DNA of 10,530 nucleotides, taken from contig JAUXHY010000021.1 in assembly GCA_030621275.1 (NCBI GenBank), positions 1 to 10,530 on the forward strand, given 5' to 3'. This document shows positions 1 to 10,530 of this stretch, piece after piece. The notes below the pieces were generated by a model that worked only from the letters and a program-made list of their open reading frames with translations, did no database searches and was not told the DNA's origin. The translations under genes and the position numbers were made by a program. This DNA is from a bacterium. Its GTDB lineage: Bacteria > Fidelibacterota > Marinisomatia > Marinisomatales > JAHJCW01. Each line of letters starts with the position of its first letter. The stretch's first letter is position 1.

Positions 1-660
1 GGAAAATAGTCGTTGAAAAGTTCCAAGAGGAATAATTGCTTGATTGTCCATACTTTGCAAACCTAAAAATTTCCCTTGTTTTTCGACGACACCGATTACG
101 CGGAATTTATAAGGTCCAATTTTAACGTTTTCGCCAATAGGATCGGAATTGTCAAAGAGCTCTTCGGCAACATCGTACCCAATAACAGCAACCCTTGAAC
201 CTGAGTTATGTTCTCCATCAGTAATAAATCGTCCTTTCTCAATTGTAGTATTTGATGTTTGCATATAATCTGTTGTAGTACCAATAACTGATACACCGGT
301 AATGCTCTTTTCATCTCGTGACATATCAGACATTCTAAAACTCTGTGGTGAAGCAGCTATAACATATTTGCCCTGCTCCACTAATTTTTCGGCATACTCA
401 GGTTTTATATCAGGACGATTTCTCAACTCCCAATAATCCTGATTACCAAACCATTCAAATTTGGATATATAAAATACATCTTTCCCTAACATCGACATGC
501 TTTTCTCAAAAGATTTATCTAACCCAGAGATTAACGTACCCATCAAGGTCACAGCTAAAACACCGATGATTATTCCCAGCGCCGTAAGAAAGGAACGCAT
601 TTTACTGGAAAAAATTGCGCTTACTGCGATACGAACGTTCTCAAAAAATAACTGAAGCAT
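1..660 (-). CDS. MacB-like ABC transporter permease, N-terminal 220 residues (3' end outside window)
   Basis: Inner-membrane permease subunit of a MacAB-type tripartite ABC pump. Translation from the ATG at 658-660 stays open for 220 codons to the window edge, so the protein is partial because of the window and not broken. The first about 25 residues are an amphipathic stretch (MLQLFFENVRIAVSAIFSSK), followed by a membrane helix at about 26-45 with TALGIIIGVLAV, the usual start of MacB/FtsX-fold permeases. The rest is the MacB periplasmic core domain: VAVIGYDVAEELF and IGENVKIGPYKFRVIGVV are typical of it. The C-terminal three membrane helices are expected beyond position 1. It starts 15 bp after the ATPase stop and has no clear Shine-Dalgarno, so it is probably translationally coupled. 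In this family ATP hydrolysis in the cytoplasm drives periplasmic movements that push substrate through TolC. The substrate cannot be read from sequence. Confidence 0.93.
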   Translation of the reverse strand, partial: MLQLFFENVRIAVSAIFSSKMRSFLTALGIIIGVLAVTLMGTLISGLDKSFEKSMSMLGKDVFYISKFEWFGNQDYWELRNRPDIKPEYAEKLVEQGKYVIAASPQSFRMSDMSRDEKSITGVSVIGTTTDYMQTSNTTIEKGRFITDGEHNSGSRVAVIGYDVAEELFDNSDPIGENVKIGPYKFRVIGVVEKQGKFLGLQSMDNQAIIPLGTFQRLFS

Positions 661-675
661 TATAAATACAACTGT

Positions 676-1395
676 TTAGTTATTCTTAATATTATTTTTT
701 TCATCAACACGTATTTTACCATCTAAAAGATGTATTGTCCGGTTGGCATGTTCAGCAATATATCGTTCATGTGTTACCAATATTATTGTATTGCCGGCAT
801 CATGTAAACCGTCAAAAATCTTCATAATTTCTTCACCGCTTTTACTATCTAAATTTCCCGTTGGTTCATCAGCTAAAATAATAGATGGATCAGTCACTAA
901 AGCACGGGCAATCGCTACGCGTTGACGTTGTCCACCTGAAAGTTCGTTAGGTTTGTGCTTCATTCTATCAGCAAGACCTACTTTATTCAGCGCCACTTCT
1001 GCTAATTCTATTCGCTCGTCTCGTGGAACATTTGCATAAATAAGAGGAAGTTCAACATTTCGCAAAGCAGTCAATTTGGATAATAAATTAAACGTTTGAA
1101 ATACAAAACCGATTTTCCGATTACGAATGGAAGCTAATTGATTGTCATCCATTTTATGAACGGGTTCACCCTCAAAAACATAAGTTCCTTCTGTTGGTGT
1201 GTCAAGACAACCAATAACATTCATCAATGTTGATTTACCAGAACCGGAAGGTCCCATAATGGAGATATATTCGTTTCTTTCAATATTGAGATCCACACCA
1301 TCTAAAGCATGAACATCCTCAGCTCCAAGATTATATATTTTCTTTACCGCCTTAAAGACGATCATTTCACCGTTTTTAGTTTCAACTGCGGACAT
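676..1395 (-). CDS. MacB/LolD-type ABC transporter ATP-binding protein
   Basis: Cytoplasmic nucleotide-binding subunit, 239 aa, the usual length for the stand-alone ATPases of the MacB/LolD/FtsE class. All catalytic motifs are present: Walker [10 protein letters not shown] at 48-56, Q-loop Q100, signature LSGGQ at 152-156, Walker B IILADE at 172-177 followed by PTGNLD (the family hallmark), and the switch histidine H209. The [20 protein letters not shown] region after the Q-loop is also typical of the class. It lies 3 bp after the adaptor stop and 15 bp before the permease. In E. coli MacB the ATPase and permease are fused, whereas here they are separate genes, as in many other phyla. The ATG at 1393-1395 is chosen for the tight gene spacing. 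A second ATG ten codons later is also possible, and neither has a strong ribosome site. Confidence 0.96.
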
Positions 1396-1398
1396 TAT

Positions 1399-2748
1399 CT
1401 AATTGTTCTCTTTATTATCTTTATTATTTCGCGAACTGCCTTCAACTTCAACAACAGTCATATGTTTTAAATCACGGCTGATAGCTTTATAACTACCGGT
1501 TACAATCTCATCTCCTTCCTCCAATCCATCTAATATTTCGTAATGGTCTTCTGAAGAAATACCTACTTTTACTGGTTTGACAATTACATATTTCTGATTT
1601 TTCTTTAGAGGCTTACCGCGCCATTTGCTCTTCTCATTTTTTTCATCACTATTTTCCGCATTGTCACTTATAACAAATACAACTTCAATCATTTCCTTCT
1701 TTTTCTTGTCATCATATGATTCTTCGCTATCAGCAGATTCATCAAAATTATCGTCTTTTGATTTACGTCCCCGTTTTTGTTTTCTTTCGGCTTCTTCTTC
1801 CCATCCTTCCTGACGAACAGTTAAACACTGAATTGGAATAGCAACAACATCTTCCTTAACATCAGTTATAATATCAGCAGTAGCACTCATACCCGGACGG
1901 ATGTTTTCTGGTATGTTAAGCATTTGTACTTTTACTTCAAAGTTGGTTACTTGCTCCTGGGTACCAAGCGATTGAGTTTCTGCAATATGAGCAATTTCGC
2001 TTACAACGCCATAAAATACTGTATCTTGAAAAGCATCAATCTCAATCTCAGAAGTATCGCCAACAGCGACGGAGACAACATCATTTTCGTTAACATCCAC
2101 AAGTACTTCCATCCTAGACAGATCAGCGACAATCATCAACACATCAGCTTGGAACATGGAACCTAAAGCCATTTCACCAACTTCTTTAGTAATCATTGCA
2201 ACAGTACCGGATTGTGGTGCAACTATGCGAGTCTTTGAAAGTTGATCTTCTTGAGAAGACAAACCTGCCAGTGCCTGTTCAAGTTGGCTCTCGGCTAATT
2301 GATATTGAGCTGTGATAGATTCTAATTCTTCCTGAGAAATTAGATTATTTGCATAAAGCGATTCTGTACGTTTTTTTTGCGCCTTTACTTGCATTAAACT
2401 AGCACGGGCTGATTTAACTGAAGAACGAGCTTGGTTATATGTTGCTCTTACTTGTTTCTCATCCAACGAAATTAAATGTTGACCTTTGGTTACATAGTCA
2501 CCTTCTTCTACTGTTATATCAGTAATCCAGGCAGAAATTGTTGCACTAATTTTTACTTCAACTTCCGGTTGAATCACACCACTTCCATTCACCTTGTGAA
2601 CAACGGTTTGGCGCTTCACTTTTTCAGTATCGACTGATATCGCTTCAGTATCCGATTTCAGCAAATTTCCTGCAACTAGTATAATCAGAACTGTTACAAC
2701 TCCAATGATTATCCATAATTTCTTTTTATTTTTTTTATTTTTAGCCAC
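1399..2748 (-). CDS. MacA-like periplasmic adaptor (HlyD/RND membrane-fusion family)
   Basis: Adaptor that bridges the inner-membrane permease and the outer-membrane channel. Layout of the 449 aa: a very basic start ([10 protein letters not shown]), an uncleaved membrane anchor at about 11-27, a first half-lipoyl domain at about 62-95 ([17 protein letters not shown]), an alpha-hairpin coiled coil at about 96-172, a second half-lipoyl domain ([19 protein letters not shown]), a beta-barrel domain at about 210-310 ([11 protein letters not shown]), and a membrane-proximal domain at about 387-436 ([13 protein letters not shown]). Between the last two is an unusual charged stretch at about 316-386 rich in Lys, Glu, Asp and Ser, which makes the protein longer than E. 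coli MacA (about 370 aa). The start is GTG at 2746-2748, supported by AGGAG (2755-2759 on the plus strand) at 6-nt spacing. It sits 27 bp after the TolC-like gene. Confidence 0.94.
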
Positions 2749-2754
2749 AACTAA

Positions 2755-2759
2755 CTCCT
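2755..2759 (-). promoter_or_regulatory. Ribosome binding site that fixes the GTG start of the adaptor gene
   Basis: On the minus strand this reads AGGAG, 6 nt upstream of the GTG at 2746-2748. It is one of the clearest Shine-Dalgarno sites in the window and supports the GTG as the true start. The N-terminal membrane anchor would be shortened or lost from later starts. Confidence 0.75.
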
Positions 2760-2775
2760 AATTTTTAACAAAAAC

Positions 2776-4053
2776 TTAATCTAGAACTCCCAACTGTGCT
2801 TTGAGGTAGGCTTCCTGAATCCTAACATCGTATTTTGATGAAACCAAATCCACGCGTGCCCGTGTTACTGATACTTGAGCATCTAATAATTCTAAAATTG
2901 ATGCCGAACCTAATCTATAACGTTCATTAACTAATTTAAAATCCTCTTCAGCAGAAACCAATATCTCTTCATTAATTGGTATTATTTTAAAATAATCACT
3001 CACGATTCCTAGTAAACTTTCTAAGCGTACAATTGCGTCATTTTTAATGGTGATCACATCATTTTCTTGCTTTTGTACCGCTAGTTTCGCTTGCTGCGAT
3101 TGCGTCGAAAGTGCCATCCCATTAAATATCGGAAATGATAGATTCAAACCAGTTGTCATCATCCAGTCATTTTTAAAAGCATTTGTGAGTCCGCTTAATT
3201 CATTATCAAATGCTTGATATGACAATGAAGCATTTAATGATGGTAGTCGTGACGCAATGGTCAATTTCTTTCTTAGTTTAATATCGGTAAGTTGAGCTTC
3301 AGCAGCCAATATTCCGGGATTATTCTCTTTTAAAATATCAATTGCTTCTACAAAATTGGGAATAGCTTGTAGTGGTAAAATCTCATTACTGATTTTCAAT
3401 TTACTATTATCACCAATTATTCCCATCGCATTGCGAAGTTCGGATATTGCCACATACAATAAAGCCTGCTGAGTTATCAATGCTGACTTTGCTGTACCAC
3501 GAGCTACTTCAGATTTAAGTAAATCGGTTTTCTTAGCGGCACCTAAATCATATTTTTTCTGAGCTAATTCAACTTGTTGCTCTGCGAGTTCCAAACTTTC
3601 TTTAGCAACTTCCAATAGTTGTTGTTTTTTTAATAATTGGAAATACGTTCGATGAACTTCAGTAATAACATTAATACGTATTTGTCTTTCTAATTGTTGT
3701 GTAATCTTATAGTTATTGTTCGCTTGCGCAATGCGATTCCACCAACCGCCGCCATCAAAAATATTTTGTACACCAGTTATCCCCGCTGACCACGAAGTTG
3801 TCGTGGGAAACAAATCACTTTTTGCATAACTTGTTTCATTTCGTCCACCCGAGAAACTTACTGAAGGTAAAATATTGCTTAACGCACCCACTTTCCCTGC
3901 TTTTGCTGATTGTAAATCCAACTGTGCAGATTGCAATGTTTCTTTGTTATCTAGAGCAATATTTACGCAATCGCTAAGAGATAACTCCTGTGCGTATATC
4001 ACACTTGATAATATTAATATTATTGTAAAAAGCGATGTTTTAATTTTCATCAT
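2776..4053 (-). CDS. TolC-like outer-membrane efflux channel
   Basis: Outer-membrane channel of the tripartite pump, 425 aa, a normal length for the family. A Sec signal peptide covers residues 1-21 (hydrophobic core SLFTIILILSSVIYA, cleavage before QE). The mature protein opens with LSLSDCVNIALDNKETLQSA, the standard start of the outer-membrane efflux protein repeat. Two such repeats are visible, about 24-215 and about 230-420, each with long coiled-coil helices. The motif QVELAQKKYDLGAAKKTDLLKSE in the first repeat is mirrored by VNERYRLGSASILELLDAQ in the second, which is the internal duplication expected of TolC. It starts 4 bp after the YIP1-family stop. Two ATGs in tandem (4051-4053 and 4048-4050) are possible starts, with a weak CAGGG upstream. 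The adaptor, ATPase and permease follow in the same operon. Confidence 0.95.
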   Translation of the reverse strand: MMKIKTSLFTIILILSSVIYAQELSLSDCVNIALDNKETLQSAQLDLQSAKAGKVGALSNILPSVSFSGGRNETSYAKSDLFPTTTSWSAGITGVQNIFDGGGWWNRIAQANNNYKITQQLERQIRINVITEVHRTYFQLLKKQQLLEVAKESLELAEQQVELAQKKYDLGAAKKTDLLKSEVARGTAKSALITQQALLYVAISELRNAMGIIGDNSKLKISNEILPLQAIPNFVEAIDILKENNPGILAAEAQLTDIKLRKKLTIASRLPSLNASLSYQAFDNELSGLTNAFKNDWMMTTGLNLSFPIFNGMALSTQSQQAKLAVQKQENDVITIKNDAIVRLESLLGIVSDYFKIIPINEEILVSAEEDFKLVNERYRLGSASILELLDAQVSVTRARVDLVSSKYDVRIQEAYLKAQLGVLD

Positions 4054-4057
4054 ATAT

Positions 4058-4762
4058 TTACCCTGCTAATCCTAAGAAAAAACTTTGAATTCCGGCGCTG
4101 ATAGCTATCAACAATACCCAGAAAATAAGTAACGCAATGAGATATGGTTTGGTTCTCTTGCTGTAAATGATACCCATTCCTATCGCAATTAATACTATTC
4201 GCCACAATGCAAACAAATCAAATCCTGCAATGAATTTATTTATGAATGAACCGTTTTCACCAATACCTAAAACACCTAGTCCAGTATATACTTCTAGCGA
4301 CCATTTACTTAACATTAACGGAATTTTTATAATATTTTCCAAAATACTAATCATATATGACCAAGCAGTTATATTCAATAACTGTCCATATTTTGCATCT
4401 CCACCCATAATTGTATTCCCGATGAGTAAAGCAACCAATGCCATAAATAAAACTTTTATTGGGTAACCTATAAACCAAGATATGTATTGATTAATATGTG
4501 ATCCCTCTAATTTCTCATCTGCTTTTTGCAACATTTCTGTCTTTGCTTCTTCTGATAATCTATCAGTTTTTTCCATAAAGTTAACTGTTTGGTCATATTC
4601 TAATTCCGCGACTAAATCTTGAACTGGTAAATATGCAATTATACCTACAACTGCGAGTATCAGTAGAGGAACCAGCGCCTTTTTAAAGTTAAAATCTTTG
4701 ACTGCTTCAAATACTTTGCTTGGGGCAAGGTAAATATTTATAATATTTGATAGTATTGACAT
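4058..4762 (-). CDS. YIP1-family integral membrane protein, first gene of the efflux operon
   Basis: A 234-aa inner-membrane protein of unknown exact role. The opening (NIINIYLAPSKVFEAVKDFN, then a hydrophobic helix at about 29-47) is characteristic of bacterial YIP1-domain proteins, in which a short amphipathic 'P..vF..i' segment precedes five or so membrane helices. Further hydrophobic segments lie at about 95-115, 130-155, 175-200 and 205-230. A hydrophilic, acidic loop at about 50-90 (TDRLSEEAKTEMLQKADEKLE) separates the first helix from the rest. The ATG at 4760-4762 has AGGAAG 8 nt upstream. The coupling to TolC, MacA and MacB (4 bp to the next gene) suggests a partner or assembly role for the pump. 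This is inference from context, because no enzymatic motif is visible. Confidence 0.85.
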   Translation of the reverse strand: MSILSNIINIYLAPSKVFEAVKDFNFKKALVPLLILAVVGIIAYLPVQDLVAELEYDQTVNFMEKTDRLSEEAKTEMLQKADEKLEGSHINQYISWFIGYPIKVLFMALVALLIGNTIMGGDAKYGQLLNITAWSYMISILENIIKIPLMLSKWSLEVYTGLGVLGIGENGSFINKFIAGFDLFALWRIVLIAIGMGIIYSKRTKPYLIALLIFWVLLIAISAGIQSFFLGLAG

Positions 4763-4799
4763 GATATGATCTTCCTATTTATAAGTTAGTTTGACACAA

Positions 4800-4819
4800 T
4801 GACAACTTAAAGGTTGTCA
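4800..4819. promoter_or_regulatory. Inverted repeat TGACAAC-N6-GTTGTCA, candidate operator of the efflux operon
   Basis: A perfect 7-bp inverted repeat with a 6-bp spacer, 38 bp upstream of the ATG of the first efflux-operon gene. Dyads of this size upstream of pump genes are often binding sites for TetR- or MarR-type repressors, and no such regulator gene lies inside the window. As RNA it would give only a short, weak hairpin with no T-run, so a protein-binding site is more likely than a terminator. The role is inferred. Confidence 0.4.
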
Positions 4820-5118
4820 ATTAATATAAAAGAAATTAACAATTTATTTATACAAAAGTTCATTTCTTATAACATACACTAAAAATTGCTTATACAGAGG
4901 ATTTTATGCTAAATCCATAAATACATTAATAATGCAATATATTATAATTTCACATTGAAATACATAAATAATTCGGTTTAGCTCTATCATAAGCAGGTCA
5001 CAACAATAGCAAATCTATCTTTACTGTAGCATTCCGACTCACAATGTGTTCTATAATGCAACAATAGTCAGGAATCTCCCTATTTCTATATTAGTAATAT
5101 TACTGAGTTTATGTGTTT

Positions 5119-5140
5119 GGCACAGTATTTGTGATATAAT
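5119..5140 (+). promoter_or_regulatory. Promoter of the secreted-protein operon (extended -10, with an overlapping sigma-54-like element)
   Basis: A perfect -10 hexamer TATAAT at 5135-5140 is preceded by TG at 5132-5133, which gives the extended -10 form TGATATAAT. The -35 position has no good match, as is usual for extended -10 promoters. The same stretch also reads TTGGCAC (5117-5123) and TTTGTG (5128-5133). The GG and the following G are placed with the 10-bp spacing of sigma-54 promoters, but the invariant GC is GT here. Transcription from TATAAT would start near 5147 and leave a leader of about 117 nt. Which sigma factor is used cannot be decided from sequence. Confidence 0.5.
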
Positions 5141-5163
5141 ATCCGAAGAGACAAACATAACAG

Positions 5164-5233
5164 TATTTTTACTTTTCAAGATGTTATTTAATAAGATGCC
5201 TCATCCGAAAGTTTTATCGAAAAAGTAAAAATA
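5164..5233 (+). repeat. Long-range inverted repeat in the leader of the first secreted-protein gene
   Basis: tatttttactttt at 5164-5176 is the exact reverse complement of aaaagtaaaaata at 5221-5233, a perfect 13-bp pair enclosing 44 nt. In the leader RNA it could close a stem-loop ending about 30 nt before the start codon. It is nearly all A-U, so its stability is modest. The right arm overlaps the first of three copies of AAGTAAAA (5223-5230, 5236-5243, 5246-5253) that run up to the ribosome site. Regulation of translation or mRNA stability is possible but unproven. Confidence 0.4.
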
Positions 5234-5252
5234 TTAAGTAAAAACAAGTAAA

Positions 5253-5257
5253 AGGAG
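5253..5257 (+). promoter_or_regulatory. Strong ribosome binding site of the first subunit gene
   Basis: AGGAG sits 6 nt upstream of the ATG at 5264-5266, inside an A-rich leader. The downstream operon genes have no comparable site, so this gene is probably translated far more strongly than the rest. Confidence 0.7.
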
Positions 5258-5263
5258 TACATA

Positions 5264-5809
5264 ATGAAACATATAAATAGAATATTACTAGCAGTTTTAG
5301 TTGTGAGTATTTCGACCGCTTACTCACAAAGTAATACGGATAATCATCAAGTGTCTATTGTAATACCCGAAATAGCAATGTTGGATATTGAATCCGCCGG
5401 TTCAAATGACATTTCATTAACAATGGTTGCCCCGACTGATGCTGGTGAAACAATAGCTGACCAAACAGACAATAGTTTATGGTTAAATGTTACATCAATA
5501 GTTACCTCAAGTGGTACAAGAGATATTTCTGTAAAACTTGATAACGCAATCACCGGTCTTGATCTTAAAGTTGTATCATTAGATTATTCAGGTTCCGGGT
5601 TTGGTTCTTGGGGAACTGCTCAATCTGAAATTATACTAAGTTCAACTGACCAAATATTAGTAGATGATTTAAGAAGTGGTTACACCTTTAATGGTGCAGG
5701 TAACGGTTATAATCTAACTTACACTGCTTCACCACAAGCAGATGCTGATTTTGGTGATTTAGTTGCTAATACCGAAAACATAACTGTCACATACACGCTC
5801 ACCCTGTAA
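5264..5809 (+). CDS. Secreted beta-rich protein, candidate major fibre subunit (subunit 1)
   Basis: I do not recognise this 181-aa protein as a member of a named family. It has a Sec signal peptide (1-21, cleavage AYS-Q). The mature part is rich in Ser, Thr, Asn and Gly, with no cysteine. It shares a pattern with the products starting at 5990 and 10042: an N-terminal strand (HQVSIVIPEIAMLDIES, 28-44), PTDAG (57-61), WLNVTS (73-78), RDISVKLD (86-93), a YSGSGFGSWG segment (108-117), DLRSG (135-139), and a final alternating strand ITVTYTLTL (173-181). An alternating hydrophobic C-terminus with an aromatic residue is what periplasmic pilus chaperones grasp in classical pilins. With a strong ribosome site and a terminator right after it, this looks like the most abundant product of the operon. 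Alternatives are a secreted matrix or adhesive protein that is not polymerised. Confidence 0.85.
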   Translation: MKHINRILLAVLVVSISTAYSQSNTDNHQVSIVIPEIAMLDIESAGSNDISLTMVAPTDAGETIADQTDNSLWLNVTSIVTSSGTRDISVKLDNAITGLDLKVVSLDYSGSGFGSWGTAQSEIILSSTDQILVDDLRSGYTFNGAGNGYNLTYTASPQADADFGDLVANTENITVTYTLTL

Positions 5810-5831
5810 TGTAAACAGAAGTAAATTAAAT

Positions 5832-5872
5832 AAAAAGGTTGCGATTACAACTAATGTTCGCAACCTTTTTTT
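5832..5872 (+). terminator. Intrinsic terminator after subunit 1
   Basis: AAAAAGGTTGCGA (5832-5844) and its exact reverse complement TCGCAACCTTTTT (5858-5870) form a 13-bp stem with a 13-nt loop, ending in seven T residues. It is the strongest terminator-like structure in the window. It lies 23 bp after the stop of subunit 1 and 118 bp before the next gene. Read-through would give lower expression of the downstream assembly genes than of subunit 1. Confidence 0.88.
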
Positions 5873-5989
5873 ATACATTGATATTTTATTTTGTTTGGTA
5901 AAGAAAATTCCTACAGAAATATGGGGGAATTCCCTAGATTAGAGATACTTGATTTATATTAAATTAATTATGTAAATCTACAATATACA

Positions 5990-6556
5990 ATGCTGAACAA
6001 TAAAAAGATTAGTATCACTCAGATAAAAGCAGTATTTGTGTTTGTTTTTATCACCTCCCTATTACTTGGTAAAGATATTAATCACGCTTCTCATACCGTT
6101 AGTATAATTATTCCCAAAATTGCTTTGTTAGATATCGAATCAGAATCTACAAACAATATCACCTTACAAATGAAATCACCCGCTGAGTCAGGTGACAAAT
6201 TAATAAACGCTACAGATAAAAGCATTTGGCTTAATGTTACTTCGGTCACTGAATCAGGAAATGCTAGAGACATTACTGTAAAACTCGACAAACCAATGCA
6301 AGGAATTGACATTCGTGTAGTTTCAAATTTCTATACTGGTTCAGGTTATGGTAAATGGGGAATTCCACAACCCGAAATCTCCTTAACTCAACATGATCAA
6401 TCATTGGTTAGTAATCTAAGAAGTGGAATAACAGGTGATGGAAGCTCTAACGGATTTAACCTAAAGTATAGTGCACACAGCATTGATTCTCAATATGGAA
6501 ATATCAATAGTACCAATGGTAGAGAAATTATTGTAACTTACACTTTAACTCACTAA
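5990..6556 (+). CDS. Secreted beta-rich protein paralogous to subunit 1 (subunit 2)
   Basis: A 188-aa exported protein, by eye roughly half identical to the product at 5264 through the whole mature region. The N-terminus is basic and then hydrophobic (KAVFVFVFITSLLLG), a signal peptide ending at about 27-33. Shared blocks are HTVSIIIPKIALLDIES (35-51), SIWLNVTS (78-85), RDITVKLD (93-100), YTGSGYGKWG (115-124), NLRSG (142-146) and the C-terminal IIVTYTLTH (180-188). There is no cysteine. No Shine-Dalgarno precedes the ATG at 5990, and it is separated from subunit 1 by the terminator, so a lower dose is expected. It is followed 18 bp later by the chaperone-like gene. A minor fibre subunit or an initiator/terminator subunit is the most likely role if this is a fibre system. 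No enzymatic motif is visible. Confidence 0.85.
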   Translation: MLNNKKISITQIKAVFVFVFITSLLLGKDINHASHTVSIIIPKIALLDIESESTNNITLQMKSPAESGDKLINATDKSIWLNVTSVTESGNARDITVKLDKPMQGIDIRVVSNFYTGSGYGKWGIPQPEISLTQHDQSLVSNLRSGITGDGSSNGFNLKYSAHSIDSQYGNINSTNGREIIVTYTLTH

Positions 6557-6574
6557 GAACATACCACCATTACC

Positions 6575-7363
6575 ATGAAATCAATAATAATTACCTTACT
6601 ACTGGTAGTTAATACTGTGTTGGGAGGCGTAGCAGTATTAAATGGATTAGCACATGAACTTAACGTTACACCCGGCAATACTTATAAAGGCAAGATCGAG
6701 TTGCAAAATGCTTCTGATATTGCACAGGTTGTTACAATTTATCAATCTGATCTGGCTACAAAGTATACCGGAGAAACATTTTATACAGATTCAATAACTA
6801 ATGACAGATCAAATATCAGTTGGATAAACCTATCTAATCTAAGTATAACACTTGAAAGCAAAGAGAAAGGAAGCATAGATTTTCAGATCACCGTACCTAA
6901 TTCCAATACACTTGCAGGAACATATTGGAGTGTTATTATGGTAGAACCCCGCGATCCAATTCATGTCCAAAAGGATGAAAGTGGCTATAGTATTCAATCC
7001 AAAATACGGTATGCTATACAAATCGTATGCAATATCGGTGAAACCGGAATAACTGACCTGAAATTCTTAAATATTTCTCAGGAAACATACAAAGATAAAC
7101 ACTACTTAGAGGTAGACATTGAAAATAACGGGCAAGTTCTTATTAAGCCAACTCTAACACTTGAATTATTTGATGTTCAAGGAAACGGTATGCCTATCAT
7201 TAAAGCCGAAAAACAAAGAATATTCCCAAATTCATCGAAAAGATATATAATTGAAATAGACAATATTAAACCTGGTGTATATCAGGGAATTTTAATAGCT
7301 GATTGTGCGACAGATGATCTTTTTGGTGTTAATGTTACTCTTCATTTGAAAGATGATGGCTAA
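6575..7363 (+). CDS. Two-domain Ig-like periplasmic protein, candidate chaperone (DUF916/WxLIP-like)
   Basis: 262 aa with a signal peptide at about 1-18 (IIITLLLVVNTVLGG). The mature part forms two beta-sandwich-like halves. The first (about 25-155) reads LNVTPGNTYKGKIELQN, a Trp in SWINL (82-86), a Pro-rich turn with TVPNSNTLAGTYWSVIMVEP (106-125), then IQSKIRYAIQIVCN (140-153). The second (about 158-258) starts ITDLKFLNISQE and contains VDIENNGQVLIKPTLTLELFD and KPGVYQGILIAD. The 'PG....i.l.N', 'W' and 'G.Y...I.V' spacing resembles the DUF916 domain of Gram-positive WxL-interacting proteins. Size and two-domain layout equal those of pilus chaperones such as FimC, and the IQSKIRYAIQI strand recalls the strand chaperones use to hold a subunit. 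Its position between subunit and barrel genes fits a chaperone. The exact family is inferred, as classical chaperone signatures are not obvious. Confidence 0.8.
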   Translation: MKSIIITLLLVVNTVLGGVAVLNGLAHELNVTPGNTYKGKIELQNASDIAQVVTIYQSDLATKYTGETFYTDSITNDRSNISWINLSNLSITLESKEKGSIDFQITVPNSNTLAGTYWSVIMVEPRDPIHVQKDESGYSIQSKIRYAIQIVCNIGETGITDLKFLNISQETYKDKHYLEVDIENNGQVLIKPTLTLELFDVQGNGMPIIKAEKQRIFPNSSKRYIIEIDNIKPGVYQGILIADCATDDLFGVNVTLHLKDDG

Positions 7364-10040
7364 AATTCGTGATCTATTTGTTTCTATATTACTGATCTGT
7401 TCTCAGGCTTTTAGCCAAAATATCGGCGCCCAGTTGATCAAAGGGTTGCCGTCTAACTTGAGTCCTGGTTCAAGCAATACTATTGTATTTAAATTATCAA
7501 ACAATAATGACCAAGATGTCATTTTAAATGCAAAATTAAAAGCGCCGTTGAACTGGCGATTATTCTACAATAAGTCTATACCAATTCAAGGAAACTCTGT
7601 AGCGATACTACCTATTGGTGTAAGGATTCCTCTTGCCACTCCACCGGGATTTTATCAGATCTTTTTGGAATTAAAAAATTCAGATTTGAACTATAATGAC
7701 ACAATAAGTGTCGATACGCATGTTCTAAAAAATATTGATATTGTAGTACAATTAGTTGACGCTCCTAAAATATCTATGTCAGGTAAAGACATATTAGCAG
7801 ATTTTAGTATTTATAATAAAAGTAACAGTAAACGAAAAATACATTTGGAATCTTCTACCGGCACAATAAATGGCACAAAAAGTTTAACACTTGATATGGG
7901 AGAAACAAAAGTTGTAAACGTTTTCTGTACAACTGATCCTGAATTAAAGAGAACTCTAAATCAAATGATCGATTTGTCTGTCACGTCGGGTCCTTATCAA
8001 AAAATTGAAAAAACTTACGTAACTGTAATTCCTTCAAAAAACTATAAAACGGACAAATATCATAGACTTCCTACGGAAATAAGTGCTATGTATTTATATC
8101 GAAATTTCGGCGATTATAAGTATACAGGATTTCAAGGTAATTTGTTTAGTAGCGGTAGCCTGGACCCCGAAAACAAGCACCATCTAGAAATTAGAGCAAG
8201 AGGTCCGAATCAATTTGATAATTCCATATTAGGACTATATGATGAGTACTATTTGAATTATAACTCAGATAAAATTCATTTGTTTATAGGGGATGACACA
8301 TACTCACTTACACCGTTAACTGAATATGGACGATATGGAACGGGTGTATTGGCCGAATATAATGACCAAAGCTACGAACTTGGTTTTTTCTATATGCAAC
8401 CAAGGTTTTTCCCCGACTATAAGGAGGAATTAGCAGGATACATAAATTATAATTTTGATGATGAAAACAAGGTTGGGCTAACATTCTTACAAAAAATTCC
8501 TGATGGATCTGATAAACCAATTAATATTTATTCCGCTGAATACACTATTAATCCACTTGAATATTTAGAGATAGACGTAGAATATTCTTTTGGGAAATTA
8601 GATAAGAAAACAGGAACCGGATACAGCATTGAACTATCAAATCAAACTGAAAAAACTTATGCCTCTGCGCAGATAGTAGATGCAGGTAAAAATTTCCCAG
8701 GGTATTATAATAATACGCGTTATTTGAATGGAAATTTCCAATATGTAATGAATAAGAATTTAAAAATATTTACAAATTTTCATGAAGATGAAAGTAATGC
8801 TCAGCGAGATACTTTATATGGTGTTTCTCCTTATTCAAAATATTTAGTTGGTGGATTAGCCTTTTCATATAGATTGCAAGATTATCTCAATTTATATATC
8901 GGAAAACGTGAGAGGAAAGACCGAATGCCGTTACAAAAATTTCATTATGAAGAAAATTTTTCAAGAATATCCTTTGTTAATAATCTCTATAAATTTCAAA
9001 CCAATATCAACGGAGAACTGGCTAACACGACTAATTTTATTACAGGTGCCAGTGGAGAATCATATAAGAGTTCATTCACATTACGATATAAACATTCACC
9101 AAAATTTATATTTAGTTCATTTCTCCAATATTACGATACTTATCGATATTCTGAAGATCGATCACAAGAAATAATATATGGAGGAGAAACAACCCTTAAT
9201 TTTAATTCGCACATAAACCTAAATATATCATTTCAAAATACTCATAACATAGAAGATTACTACCGCGATCGGAGTCTATTTGATTTACGGTTTACCAAAA
9301 CAATAAGAGAAAAACATAAATTTGAATTTTTATGGTCAGAAGCTCTAAAACAAAAACAAGTTGATGACAGAGATACTTACATCGGACTAAAATATACATT
9401 TCATTTTGGAATTCCGTTGAAAAAGACAAAAGACCTTGGCAGTATTCGCGGACGACTAATCAATAGCGGTGTAAAAAGTATAGCAAATGTTATTTTAAAT
9501 CTTGGAGGGCGAATACAAGTGACGGATGAAGATGGTCTATTTATTTTCTCTGATATTCCTCCCGGTGATCATTATCTGTATATCAATAATGCTTCATTGA
9601 ATTTTAATGATATTGCAACGGTGAAAACCCCCATGATCGTTACCATTGAACCTGACAAATTAACAGACATACAAATAGAATTAACAAAAGCAGGCAATAT
9701 ATCAGGTAGTGTTTTGCTTGATTTTGAAGATTTAAGATCAGAACGATTGACTTCTGATATAAGTGATATAGATAACAAAGATGTTATTGTTGAACTCCAA
9801 CTCGATAATGAATTTCATCGTACTATAGTAAATTTGAACGATAAATTTCAGTTTACCGGATTACGTCCCGGGAATTGGACAGTAAGAGTTTATCATAATA
9901 GTCTTGGAAATAATTTTACAATTAAAAATTCAGAAATGATTGTTAATTTAAAGGCAGGCGAATCTACTACTATAAATATTAATGTTATTAAAAAAGCCCG
10001 AAGAATCAGGTTTCAACCAACGGAAATAATTATTAACTAA
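7353..10040 (+). CDS. Large outer-membrane beta-barrel with Ig-like N-terminus and two regulatory-like C-terminal domains, candidate usher
   Basis: 895 aa, the size of pilus ushers (about 800-900). Signal peptide 1-21 (AFS-QN). Residues about 26-225 form two Ig-like domains; the first (LSPGSSNTIVFKLSN, ATPPGFYQIFLELKN) resembles NEW3-type domains. From about 240 to 690 the sequence is a run of alternating polar and aromatic strands (FQGNLFSSGSL, YDEYYLNYNSDKIHLFIGDD, YELGFFYMQPRFF, YTFHFGIPL) typical of an outer-membrane barrel. The FIGDD..SL..L...GR.GTG stretch (311-331) recalls the 'lGd....s.l...' region of ushers. Residues about 696-780 and 781-879 are two carboxypeptidase-regulatory-like domains (GSIRGRLINSGVKSIANVIL, TDEDGLFIFSDIPPGDHYLYI; GNISGSVLLDFED, LRPGNWTVRVYHN), a place where ushers also carry two soluble domains. 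There is no TonB box or obvious plug domain, which argues against a TonB receptor. The gene overlaps its neighbour by 11 bp (or 8 if the second ATG is used), which implies coupled translation. Confidence 0.8.
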   Translation: MMAKIRDLFVSILLICSQAFSQNIGAQLIKGLPSNLSPGSSNTIVFKLSNNNDQDVILNAKLKAPLNWRLFYNKSIPIQGNSVAILPIGVRIPLATPPGFYQIFLELKNSDLNYNDTISVDTHVLKNIDIVVQLVDAPKISMSGKDILADFSIYNKSNSKRKIHLESSTGTINGTKSLTLDMGETKVVNVFCTTDPELKRTLNQMIDLSVTSGPYQKIEKTYVTVIPSKNYKTDKYHRLPTEISAMYLYRNFGDYKYTGFQGNLFSSGSLDPENKHHLEIRARGPNQFDNSILGLYDEYYLNYNSDKIHLFIGDDTYSLTPLTEYGRYGTGVLAEYNDQSYELGFFYMQPRFFPDYKEELAGYINYNFDDENKVGLTFLQKIPDGSDKPINIYSAEYTINPLEYLEIDVEYSFGKLDKKTGTGYSIELSNQTEKTYASAQIVDAGKNFPGYYNNTRYLNGNFQYVMNKNLKIFTNFHEDESNAQRDTLYGVSPYSKYLVGGLAFSYRLQDYLNLYIGKRERKDRMPLQKFHYEENFSRISFVNNLYKFQTNINGELANTTNFITGASGESYKSSFTLRYKHSPKFIFSSFLQYYDTYRYSEDRSQEIIYGGETTLNFNSHINLNISFQNTHNIEDYYRDRSLFDLRFTKTIREKHKFEFLWSEALKQKQVDDRDTYIGLKYTFHFGIPLKKTKDLGSIRGRLINSGVKSIANVILNLGGRIQVTDEDGLFIFSDIPPGDHYLYINNASLNFNDIATVKTPMIVTIEPDKLTDIQIELTKAGNISGSVLLDFEDLRSERLTSDISDIDNKDVIVELQLDNEFHRTIVNLNDKFQFTGLRPGNWTVRVYHNSLGNNFTIKNSEMIVNLKAGESTTININVIKKARRIRFQPTEIIIN

Positions 10041-10041
10041 T

Positions 10042-10530
10042 ATGAAATTCCAAACTATCATATTATATATCTTTATTTTGTGTACGGCTAATATTTGTTT
10101 TTCGCAAACACAGTCTACACACAATGCTTATTTCACTCTACCCGAAATTGCCATTTTGAACATTGAACCCAATACAAATGATATAATTTTAGAGTTTGAA
10201 GCACCTACTGATCCGGGAGATGAGCTTACTCCTATCGGGGGAGATACAAAATGGTTGAATTATACAGCTACGTTAGCCTTGGGAGGAACACCAAAAATCA
10301 TAACAGCCCAAGTATCAGCTTCTACAAATATTCCCGGACTTAAAATTGAATTACTTATTTCAAAATATAATGGCAATGGTAAGGGAGTATTTGGAACATC
10401 AGTAGGAACAATAAATCTTTCTTCAACAGCTCAAACAATTATATCCGGAATTGGAGGCTGTTTTACTCGAAATGGAGCAAACAGAGGGCATGAAATTGAA
10501 TATAATGCATCTATTGATGATTATTCTATC
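10042..10530 (+). CDS. Divergent secreted paralogue (subunit 3), 3' end outside window
   Basis: The reading frame is open for 163 codons to the window edge. Signal peptide 1-21 (TIILYIFILCTANICFS-Q). Shared with subunits 1 and 2 are the N-terminal strand YFTLPEIAILNIEP (30-43), APTDPGDEL (54-62), KWLNYTAT (70-77), KYNGNGKGVFG (108-118) and SSTAQTIISGI (127-137), but identity is clearly lower. It is the only one of the three with a cysteine in the mature part (C140). The C-terminal alternating strand is expected just past the window. The ATG at 10042 lies one base after the stop of the barrel gene and has no ribosome site, so translation is probably coupled. The last position in a fibre operon is often taken by a tip or adhesive subunit, but that role here is inference. 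Confidence 0.82.
   Translation, partial: MKFQTIILYIFILCTANICFSQTQSTHNAYFTLPEIAILNIEPNTNDIILEFEAPTDPGDELTPIGGDTKWLNYTATLALGGTPKIITAQVSASTNIPGLKIELLISKYNGNGKGVFGTSVGTINLSSTAQTIISGIGGCFTRNGANRGHEIEYNASIDDYSI

Follow-up and report, generated by a model that had tools for sequence, protein, structure and literature searches.

A candidate chaperone-usher-like surface fibre operon with a WxLIP-related chaperone

Chaperone-usher pili are built by a textbook pathway that has been described mainly from Proteobacteria. The TapA-TasA fibres of Bacillus reportedly involve strand complementation by a chaperone. According to PMC4654587, the classical and alternate chaperone-usher systems are restricted to beta- and gamma-proteobacteria, and the archaic systems are found from alpha- to delta-proteobacteria and in Cyanobacteria and Deinococcus-Thermus; elsewhere the same article calls the alternative family widely distributed, and it does not name Bacteroidetes. 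WxLIP proteins bind and stabilise WxL proteins at the cell surface, as stated in a part of PMC10599100. Here we analysed an entire contig of 10,530 bases (C143, called the window below) from a metagenome-assembled genome (MAG) of 1.54 Mb and 70.7% completeness. It carries an operon for three small putative fibre subunits (S1, S2 and S3), a periplasmic chaperone-like protein with two immunoglobulin-like (Ig-like) domains and a large outer-membrane barrel. We consider it likely, at roughly 74%, that a surface fibre system of chaperone-usher-like type is encoded here, its chaperone being related to WxLIP and its barrel plugless in the predicted model. It has the combination of subunits, periplasmic chaperone and usher-like barrel by which a chaperone-usher operon is recognised. 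A divergent branch of this kind had been proposed in a preliminary description of the DNA, and operon order, recurrence in other genomes and predicted folds now support it.

Structure prediction bore out the two Ig-like domains that had been noted in the chaperone-like protein, and its model has the fold of PapD/FimC-type chaperones. Among the matches listed in the fold searches, which leave room for families outside the lists, WxLIP ranked first, followed by CfaA, YadV, FimC and CsuC, which were level with some further proteins of PapD-like type; FimC, CfaA and CsuC, with which a structural comparison had been suggested, were all matched, behind WxLIP. Both domains are related to WxLIP in sequence as well as in fold. 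The sole PDB sequence match of the chaperone family profile was EfmWxLIP1 of Enterococcus faecium (E 8.9e-11), and the window protein scored 24.6 bits with PF06030 (WxLIP_PGBD), under the cut-off of 27.3. The chaperone model PF00345 was absent from the Pfam matches of the window protein at E <= 1 and from those of 24 family members at E <= 0.01. Weak matches were seen to TapA for the window chaperone (E 0.056, 13.1 bits against a cut-off of 80) and to Mfa2 for one of the 24 family members (E 0.002). No C-terminal transmembrane helix was found in the window chaperone; the protein of 262 amino acids (aa) ends in a beta strand and KDDG. The WxL model PF13731 matched none of 19 subunits at E <= 1 and none of 21 genomes, with the positive control, Lactococcus lactis, detected. 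Homologues of the chaperone are available in the named genera Draconibacterium, Mariniphaga and Maribellus, and the locus was inspected for one Mariniphaga MAG (L039).

For the barrel protein, the predicted structure (predicted local distance difference test, pLDDT, 86.5; predicted template modelling score, pTM, 0.60) agrees with the earlier notion of a barrel flanked on either side by soluble domains: two Ig-like N-terminal domains (residues 24-226) precede the barrel (236-691) and two C-terminal beta-sandwich domains (696-880) follow it. FimD likewise has two C-terminal beta-sandwich domains. The preliminary description had allowed for a TonB receptor, a porin or another known class; when this was checked by fold search, FimD and PapC were the best solved matches, first in both searches, and other large barrels (porins, LptD) ranked just below the ushers, close by Z, which makes the margin modest. 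At E <= 1, the Pfam matches of the window protein included neither the usher model PF00577 nor any TonB receptor, plug or porin model; one relative of the barrel bears the label PF13609. In the 70.7% complete genome as a whole, PF00577 had no match, in a search that detected the E. coli control. The preliminary description had not recognised these proteins as members of known fimbrial clades, and PF00577 and PF00345 are indeed both unmatched.

The predicted model has no domain-sized insert among strands 236-691 that could form a plug. A PDB profile search with the barrel protein gave no usher among 15 matches at E <= 10; what matched were stretches similar to Ig or CarboxypepD domains, from sialidase, NOMO2, glycosidases and others, and the C-terminal part of the barrel protein is CarboxypepD_reg-like. 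Its N-terminal Ig domains (window positions 7422-8030) weakly resemble the first domain of the chaperone, at 43-45% for single domains. They are possibly a chaperone-like receiver; the comparisons that bear on a captured chaperone gave 13-45%. A SPOR domain is present in two of the 14 barrel proteins of alignment A2 (P0020, which is the L042 protein, and one other), which suggests peptidoglycan binding.

The gene-neighbourhood check that had been proposed showed that the set recurs. When genome contigs were scanned with the barrel profile, nine loci were obtained, from Bacteroidetes, Chlorobiota, Bacteroidales, Mariniphaga, Prolixibacteraceae, Ignavibacteria, a MAG labelled 'Clostridiales' and two others, which, judging by equal scores, appear to be G001 and G003, genus mates of the window genome. 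The chaperone gene lies directly 5' of the barrel gene in all nine. Subunit-type genes lie upstream in eight (the contig of L034 starts inside the chaperone gene) and an extra subunit gene lies 3' of the barrel in eight, the exception being L042. The full order subunit-chaperone-barrel-subunit-tip was seen in six loci (L035-L040, with the tip gene of L039 truncated where its contig stops). Chaperone and barrel remain together even where the barrels are only 22-32% identical, and the recurrence is therefore beyond chance.

Since these nine loci had been chosen by their barrel, we made a second search with only the chaperone as query. It covered 395 genomes of the phylum to which the Prolixibacteraceae genome belongs, 43 of which matched, with 51 places listed; 35 of these were examined as new loci, and two more are L040 and L041. 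A barrel-profile gene adjoins the chaperone in 18 of the 24 stronger loci (L091-L114, E <= 1.5e-39), the other six being L100, L103, L107, L109, L110 and L114. Among the 11 weaker loci (L115-L125), only L116 has a barrel-profile gene. A gene of 933-948 aa neighbours the chaperone in L115 and L117-L120, and when these neighbours are aligned with that of L116 (A12), 837 columns match the barrel family of the window (99.6%, E 2e-24), the L115 neighbour having been assessed within this alignment and not singly. The gene order is reversed in L115 and L116, with the barrel upstream of the chaperone. The chaperone neighbour in L121-L125, of 1003-1240 aa, is of a different, usher-like type. Going by a single named homologue of the barrel (P0016), the window probably comes from a member of Candidatus Marinimicrobia. 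In the window's phylum, six of 245 genomes have the chaperone, all with a large barrel-type gene close by: the window type in three, including the window, the usher-like type in G223, and in G182 and G167 a barrel relative of 1715 or 2254 aa, two genes or one gene further on. The barrel profile matched 48 of these 245 genomes, only three at full length; the other matches were short, mostly to the CarboxypepD-like C-terminal part, and were left uncounted. A genus mate of 92% completeness (G002) has neither chaperone nor barrel, and the operon is thus accessory.

Several variants were seen among the relatives. Chaperone genes without an adjoining barrel gene were noted (L100, L103, L107, L109, L110; L127-L129); in L103 the chaperone adjoins what by eye is a dUTPase-like gene, and three of these genomes have elsewhere an ORF (open reading frame) of 904-919 aa that matches the barrel family at its C-terminus only. 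Giant relatives of the barrel lie near the chaperone in L060, where the protein has 1715 aa with LysM and SdrD-like domains, and in L061, where it has 2254 aa. In L117-L120 the chaperone is preceded by series of 181-aa subunit genes that closely resemble one another, and the product of a gene after the barrel, 477-478 aa long, is possibly a tip adhesin. The genome of L042 (G253) is labelled Clostridiales, yet has the outer-membrane system; seven of 199 sampled genomes of its phylum have the chaperone.

The three small proteins of the window had been called related, and they are: S1 and S2 align with 46% identity, and S3 scores 160 bits with a subunit profile in which S1 and S2 are included and S3 is not. 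Inspected by eye, S1 has a signal peptide, then an N-terminal segment of alternating hydrophobic residues, and a strand-like VTYTLTL at the C-terminus; the subunits generally show the same signal peptide, alternating segment and strand at the extreme C-terminus. The C-terminal motif was found in 56 of 64 subunits and in 49 of 333 ORFs of at least 250 aa, a comparison that is descriptive only, the pattern having been picked after inspection. For the subunit groups, 64 of 144 candidate ORFs were selected by eye; the 80 omitted were non-subunit-looking ORFs, near-copies, those of two Marinimicrobia-phylum loci and some odd ones. In profile comparisons the first subunits matched the distal (100%), tip (92.2%), Ignavibacteria-type (98.8%), flavobacterial (68.3%) and DUF4402-type (93.5%) subunits, and 30 reversed controls reached at most 2.9%. 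Other pairs were weak: distal with flavobacterial (2.6%), tip with Ignavibacteria type (8.6%), tip with flavobacterial (12.7%), flavobacterial with DUF4402 (26.7%) and Ignavibacteria type with DUF4402 (45.2%). Against the PDB, the subunit profile gave three matches, none credible (best E 0.19). In a model of S2 fused to the chaperone (pLDDT 76.3, with most of the chaperone >90 and blocks of the subunit at 56-88), the stretch of S2 ahead of its first strand, residues 22-43, is disordered and unpaired, as expected for a donor strand, though low confidence is no proof.

Between S1 and S2 lies a gap of 180 bases with a strong hairpin. Folding of this gap gave a z of -4.0, and none of 200 shuffles was equally stable; a terminator pattern scan of positions 4763-6000 gave no site, though folding reveals the hairpin. 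A like repeat is found in the corresponding gap of L035 (8385-8423). In a survey of 12 gaps, z was <= -3.5 in four (window, L036, L038 and L094), -2.7 in L093, -1.7 in L035, -1.4 in L102 and about 0 in five (L037, L039 twice, L040 twice); the hairpin is not universal among relatives. The inverted repeat is probably an attenuator, which would allow an excess of S1. Since S1 is the first gene and has this attenuator-like hairpin behind it, we regard it as the probable shaft subunit.

The six loci with DUF4402-type subunits (L121-L125 and L062) form a sister group. Their chaperones are related to the window family (98.6% in profile comparison). Pfam DUF4402 was matched by three scanned subunits, in L062 and L121, with only that of L121 above the cut-off. 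By eye, the alignment of their barrels has an usher-like N domain and a plug-like segment. Compared with E. coli K-12, the sister-group barrels matched eight ushers (96.7%, 547 columns), the chaperones 11 chaperones (95.3%, 141 columns) and the subunits 13 pilins (77.9%, 151 columns), the reversed controls giving 0.2% each. A smaller K-12 set gave 1.6%, 84.9% and 15.9%, respectively, and the barrel and pilin links thus hinge on profile depth. Compared directly with K-12, the window-type barrel reached 9.4% at best and the chaperone at most 3.0%; the first subunits did not match the pilins (8.8%, reversed 9.9%). We do not count the 9.4% of the barrel against a relationship, since the ushers of classical and ECP systems miss each other in the same comparison (4.2%; chaperones 18.3%). 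The window barrel is alignable with the sister-group barrels in the C-terminal domain only, and the two types may therefore reflect an exchange of barrels or a divergence too deep to be recognised. On these profile comparisons, the sister group is a bridge from the window system to chaperone-usher pili, and its DUF4402-type proteins have the look of pilins that belong, with an usher-like barrel, to a chaperone-usher-like system.

In the mechanism that we infer, Sec would export S1, S2 and S3 (and, in relatives, the tip-like protein), each with a beta-sandwich one strand short. The WxLIP-like chaperone would hold a subunit in the periplasm, a strand of its first domain filling the gap, and the complex would dock at the 895-aa outer-membrane barrel. 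There, the N-terminal segment of the next subunit would displace the chaperone strand. The fibre would exit via the barrel pore, with S1 as the main shaft and the distal small proteins as the tip. The model thus proposes that strands are donated and exchanged and that subunits are secreted through the barrel, and it proposes the order of assembly and the fibre itself.

The operon could also serve a Gram-negative display like that of WxL and WxLIP, without polymerisation, in which the chaperone would stabilise single subunits and the barrel would pass or anchor monomers or short complexes. That WxLIP is the nearest solved relative of the chaperone, and is described as a WxL-binding and stabilising surface protein (PMC10599100, in part), fits such a display. 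The best matches of the barrel are nevertheless pilus ushers, the operons hold several paralogous subunits and tip-like proteins, the chaperone ends without a transmembrane helix, and profile comparison links the sister group to parts of true pili. The attenuator-like hairpin after the first subunit gene, in the window and some relatives, fits an excess of a shaft subunit, and we regard display as an unlikely explanation.

An even smaller chance is given to a barrel of another outer-membrane class (porin, TonB-type receptor or LptD-like) that merely stands beside a chaperone and secreted beta-proteins. Such barrels come close in the fold searches, but ushers rank first in both, the Pfam matches of the window protein (E <= 1) hold no TonB receptor, plug or porin model, the neighbourhood is preserved across large distances, and the two C-terminal beta-sandwich domains resemble what is generally known of FimD. 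Least of all do we expect type V (FimA/Mfa1-like) fimbriae of Bacteroidetes, which are assembled by proteolysis from lipoprotein precursors. Their taxonomic group overlaps with ours and one chaperone-family member weakly matches Mfa2, but no FimA/Mfa model was found for S1, S2, S3 or 19 subunits at E <= 1, and the signal peptides of S1 and S2 end, by eye, without a lipobox cysteine. Type V loci are not known to have a chaperone or an usher-like barrel. A chaperone-usher-like fibre system therefore remains our preferred reading.

All five ORFs were confirmed on one strand at the positions first reported (Table 1). The genes had been called mostly overlapping or touching, which holds for the last four (S2 and chaperone 18 bases apart, chaperone and barrel overlapping by 11, barrel and S3 1 base apart) and not for S1, 180 bases away from S2. 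The contig end cuts S3 and any later gene; a full-length counterpart of S3 is found in L035 (12675-13226), and relatives often have a sixth gene next, which encodes another small distal protein (151-202 aa). On the minus strand, window positions 1-4762 carry what look by eye like genes for a permease of MacB/FtsX type, an ABC ATPase and a protein resembling HlyD/MacA. Next come genes for an efflux protein similar to TolC (PF02321) and for a Yip1 protein (PF04893). Genes resembling this set adjoin the operon in L035.

Table 1. Features of the operon in the window
Feature	Position	Strand	Basis
S1, probable major fibre subunit, 181 aa	5264-5809	+	ORF; first gene of the operon; 46% identity with S2; hairpin 3'
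Inverted repeat with T-run, probable attenuator	5827-5875	+	arms 5827-5844 and 5858-5875
S2, second fibre subunit (putative), 188 aa	5990-6556	+	ORF; alignment; fused model
Periplasmic chaperone-like protein, two Ig-like domains, 262 aa, WxLIP-related	6575-7363	+	profile and fold matches
Usher-like outer-membrane protein, 895 aa	7353-10040	+	predicted structure, fold search
S3, distal subunit (putative), 163 aa visible	10042-10530	+	ORF open at 3' end

If this reading is true, a divergent branch of the chaperone-usher pathway spans Bacteroidota, Chlorobi/Ignavibacteria and Marinimicrobia-like groups, masked by 'hypothetical protein' and DUF names. The pathway would then be tied to Gram-positive WxLIP, and two systems studied separately may share an origin. 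DUF4402 and DUF3324-type proteins would gain a testable role, and the second barrel type would be a means to ask what the usher plug is for. More tentatively, and with rather less than even odds, WxL/WxLIP, proteobacterial chaperone-usher pili and the window system could descend from one ancient donor-strand pair of a two-Ig chaperone and an incomplete beta-sandwich subunit. Bacteroidota- and Marinimicrobia-type lineages would have kept several versions, including the plugless proto-usher of the window and the usher with DUF4402 pilins, and Gram-positives would have retained the pair but no barrel, having lost it or never possessed it. Among the matches listed from the open-access PubMed Central literature, bioRxiv excluded, we found no paper on such a system, which does not prove absence, and the word DUF4402 was in no paper of the literature searched.

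Compared with the known systems, the locus shares with chaperone-usher pili (classical FimC/FimD, alternative CFA/I and ECP, archaic Csu) the operon logic, the two-Ig-domain chaperone fold, a large outer-membrane barrel with soluble end domains, and small paralogous beta subunits with distal subunits. It differs in lacking a Pfam usher or chaperone match, in its plugless barrel model, in the Ig-like N domains of the barrel and in its hosts. The DUF4402 loci are alike in their chaperone, their first subunits and a large barrel-type gene after the chaperone, whereas their barrel shares only the C-terminal domain and is profile-related to E. coli ushers. A likeness to TapA-TasA fibres lies in the strand complementation reported there and proposed here, and in the TapA match of the chaperone, far under the cut-off; those fibres have no outer membrane or barrel. 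With the WxL/WxLIP (DUF916-DUF3324) clusters of Lactobacillales and Bacillales, the window system has in common a chaperone akin over both domains, in sequence and fold, and a two-Ig protein encoded with small secreted beta-proteins; unlike them, it has no C-terminal transmembrane helix on the chaperone, no PF13731 match among the subunits, and an outer-membrane barrel in addition. We do not place the system in the chaperone-usher families, because their usher and chaperone models are unmatched and the barrel model is plugless, nor in WxLIP/WxL, because membrane helix and WxL partner are missing. We therefore set it apart from both, as a system that would work like chaperone-usher with a chaperone that is kin to WxLIP.

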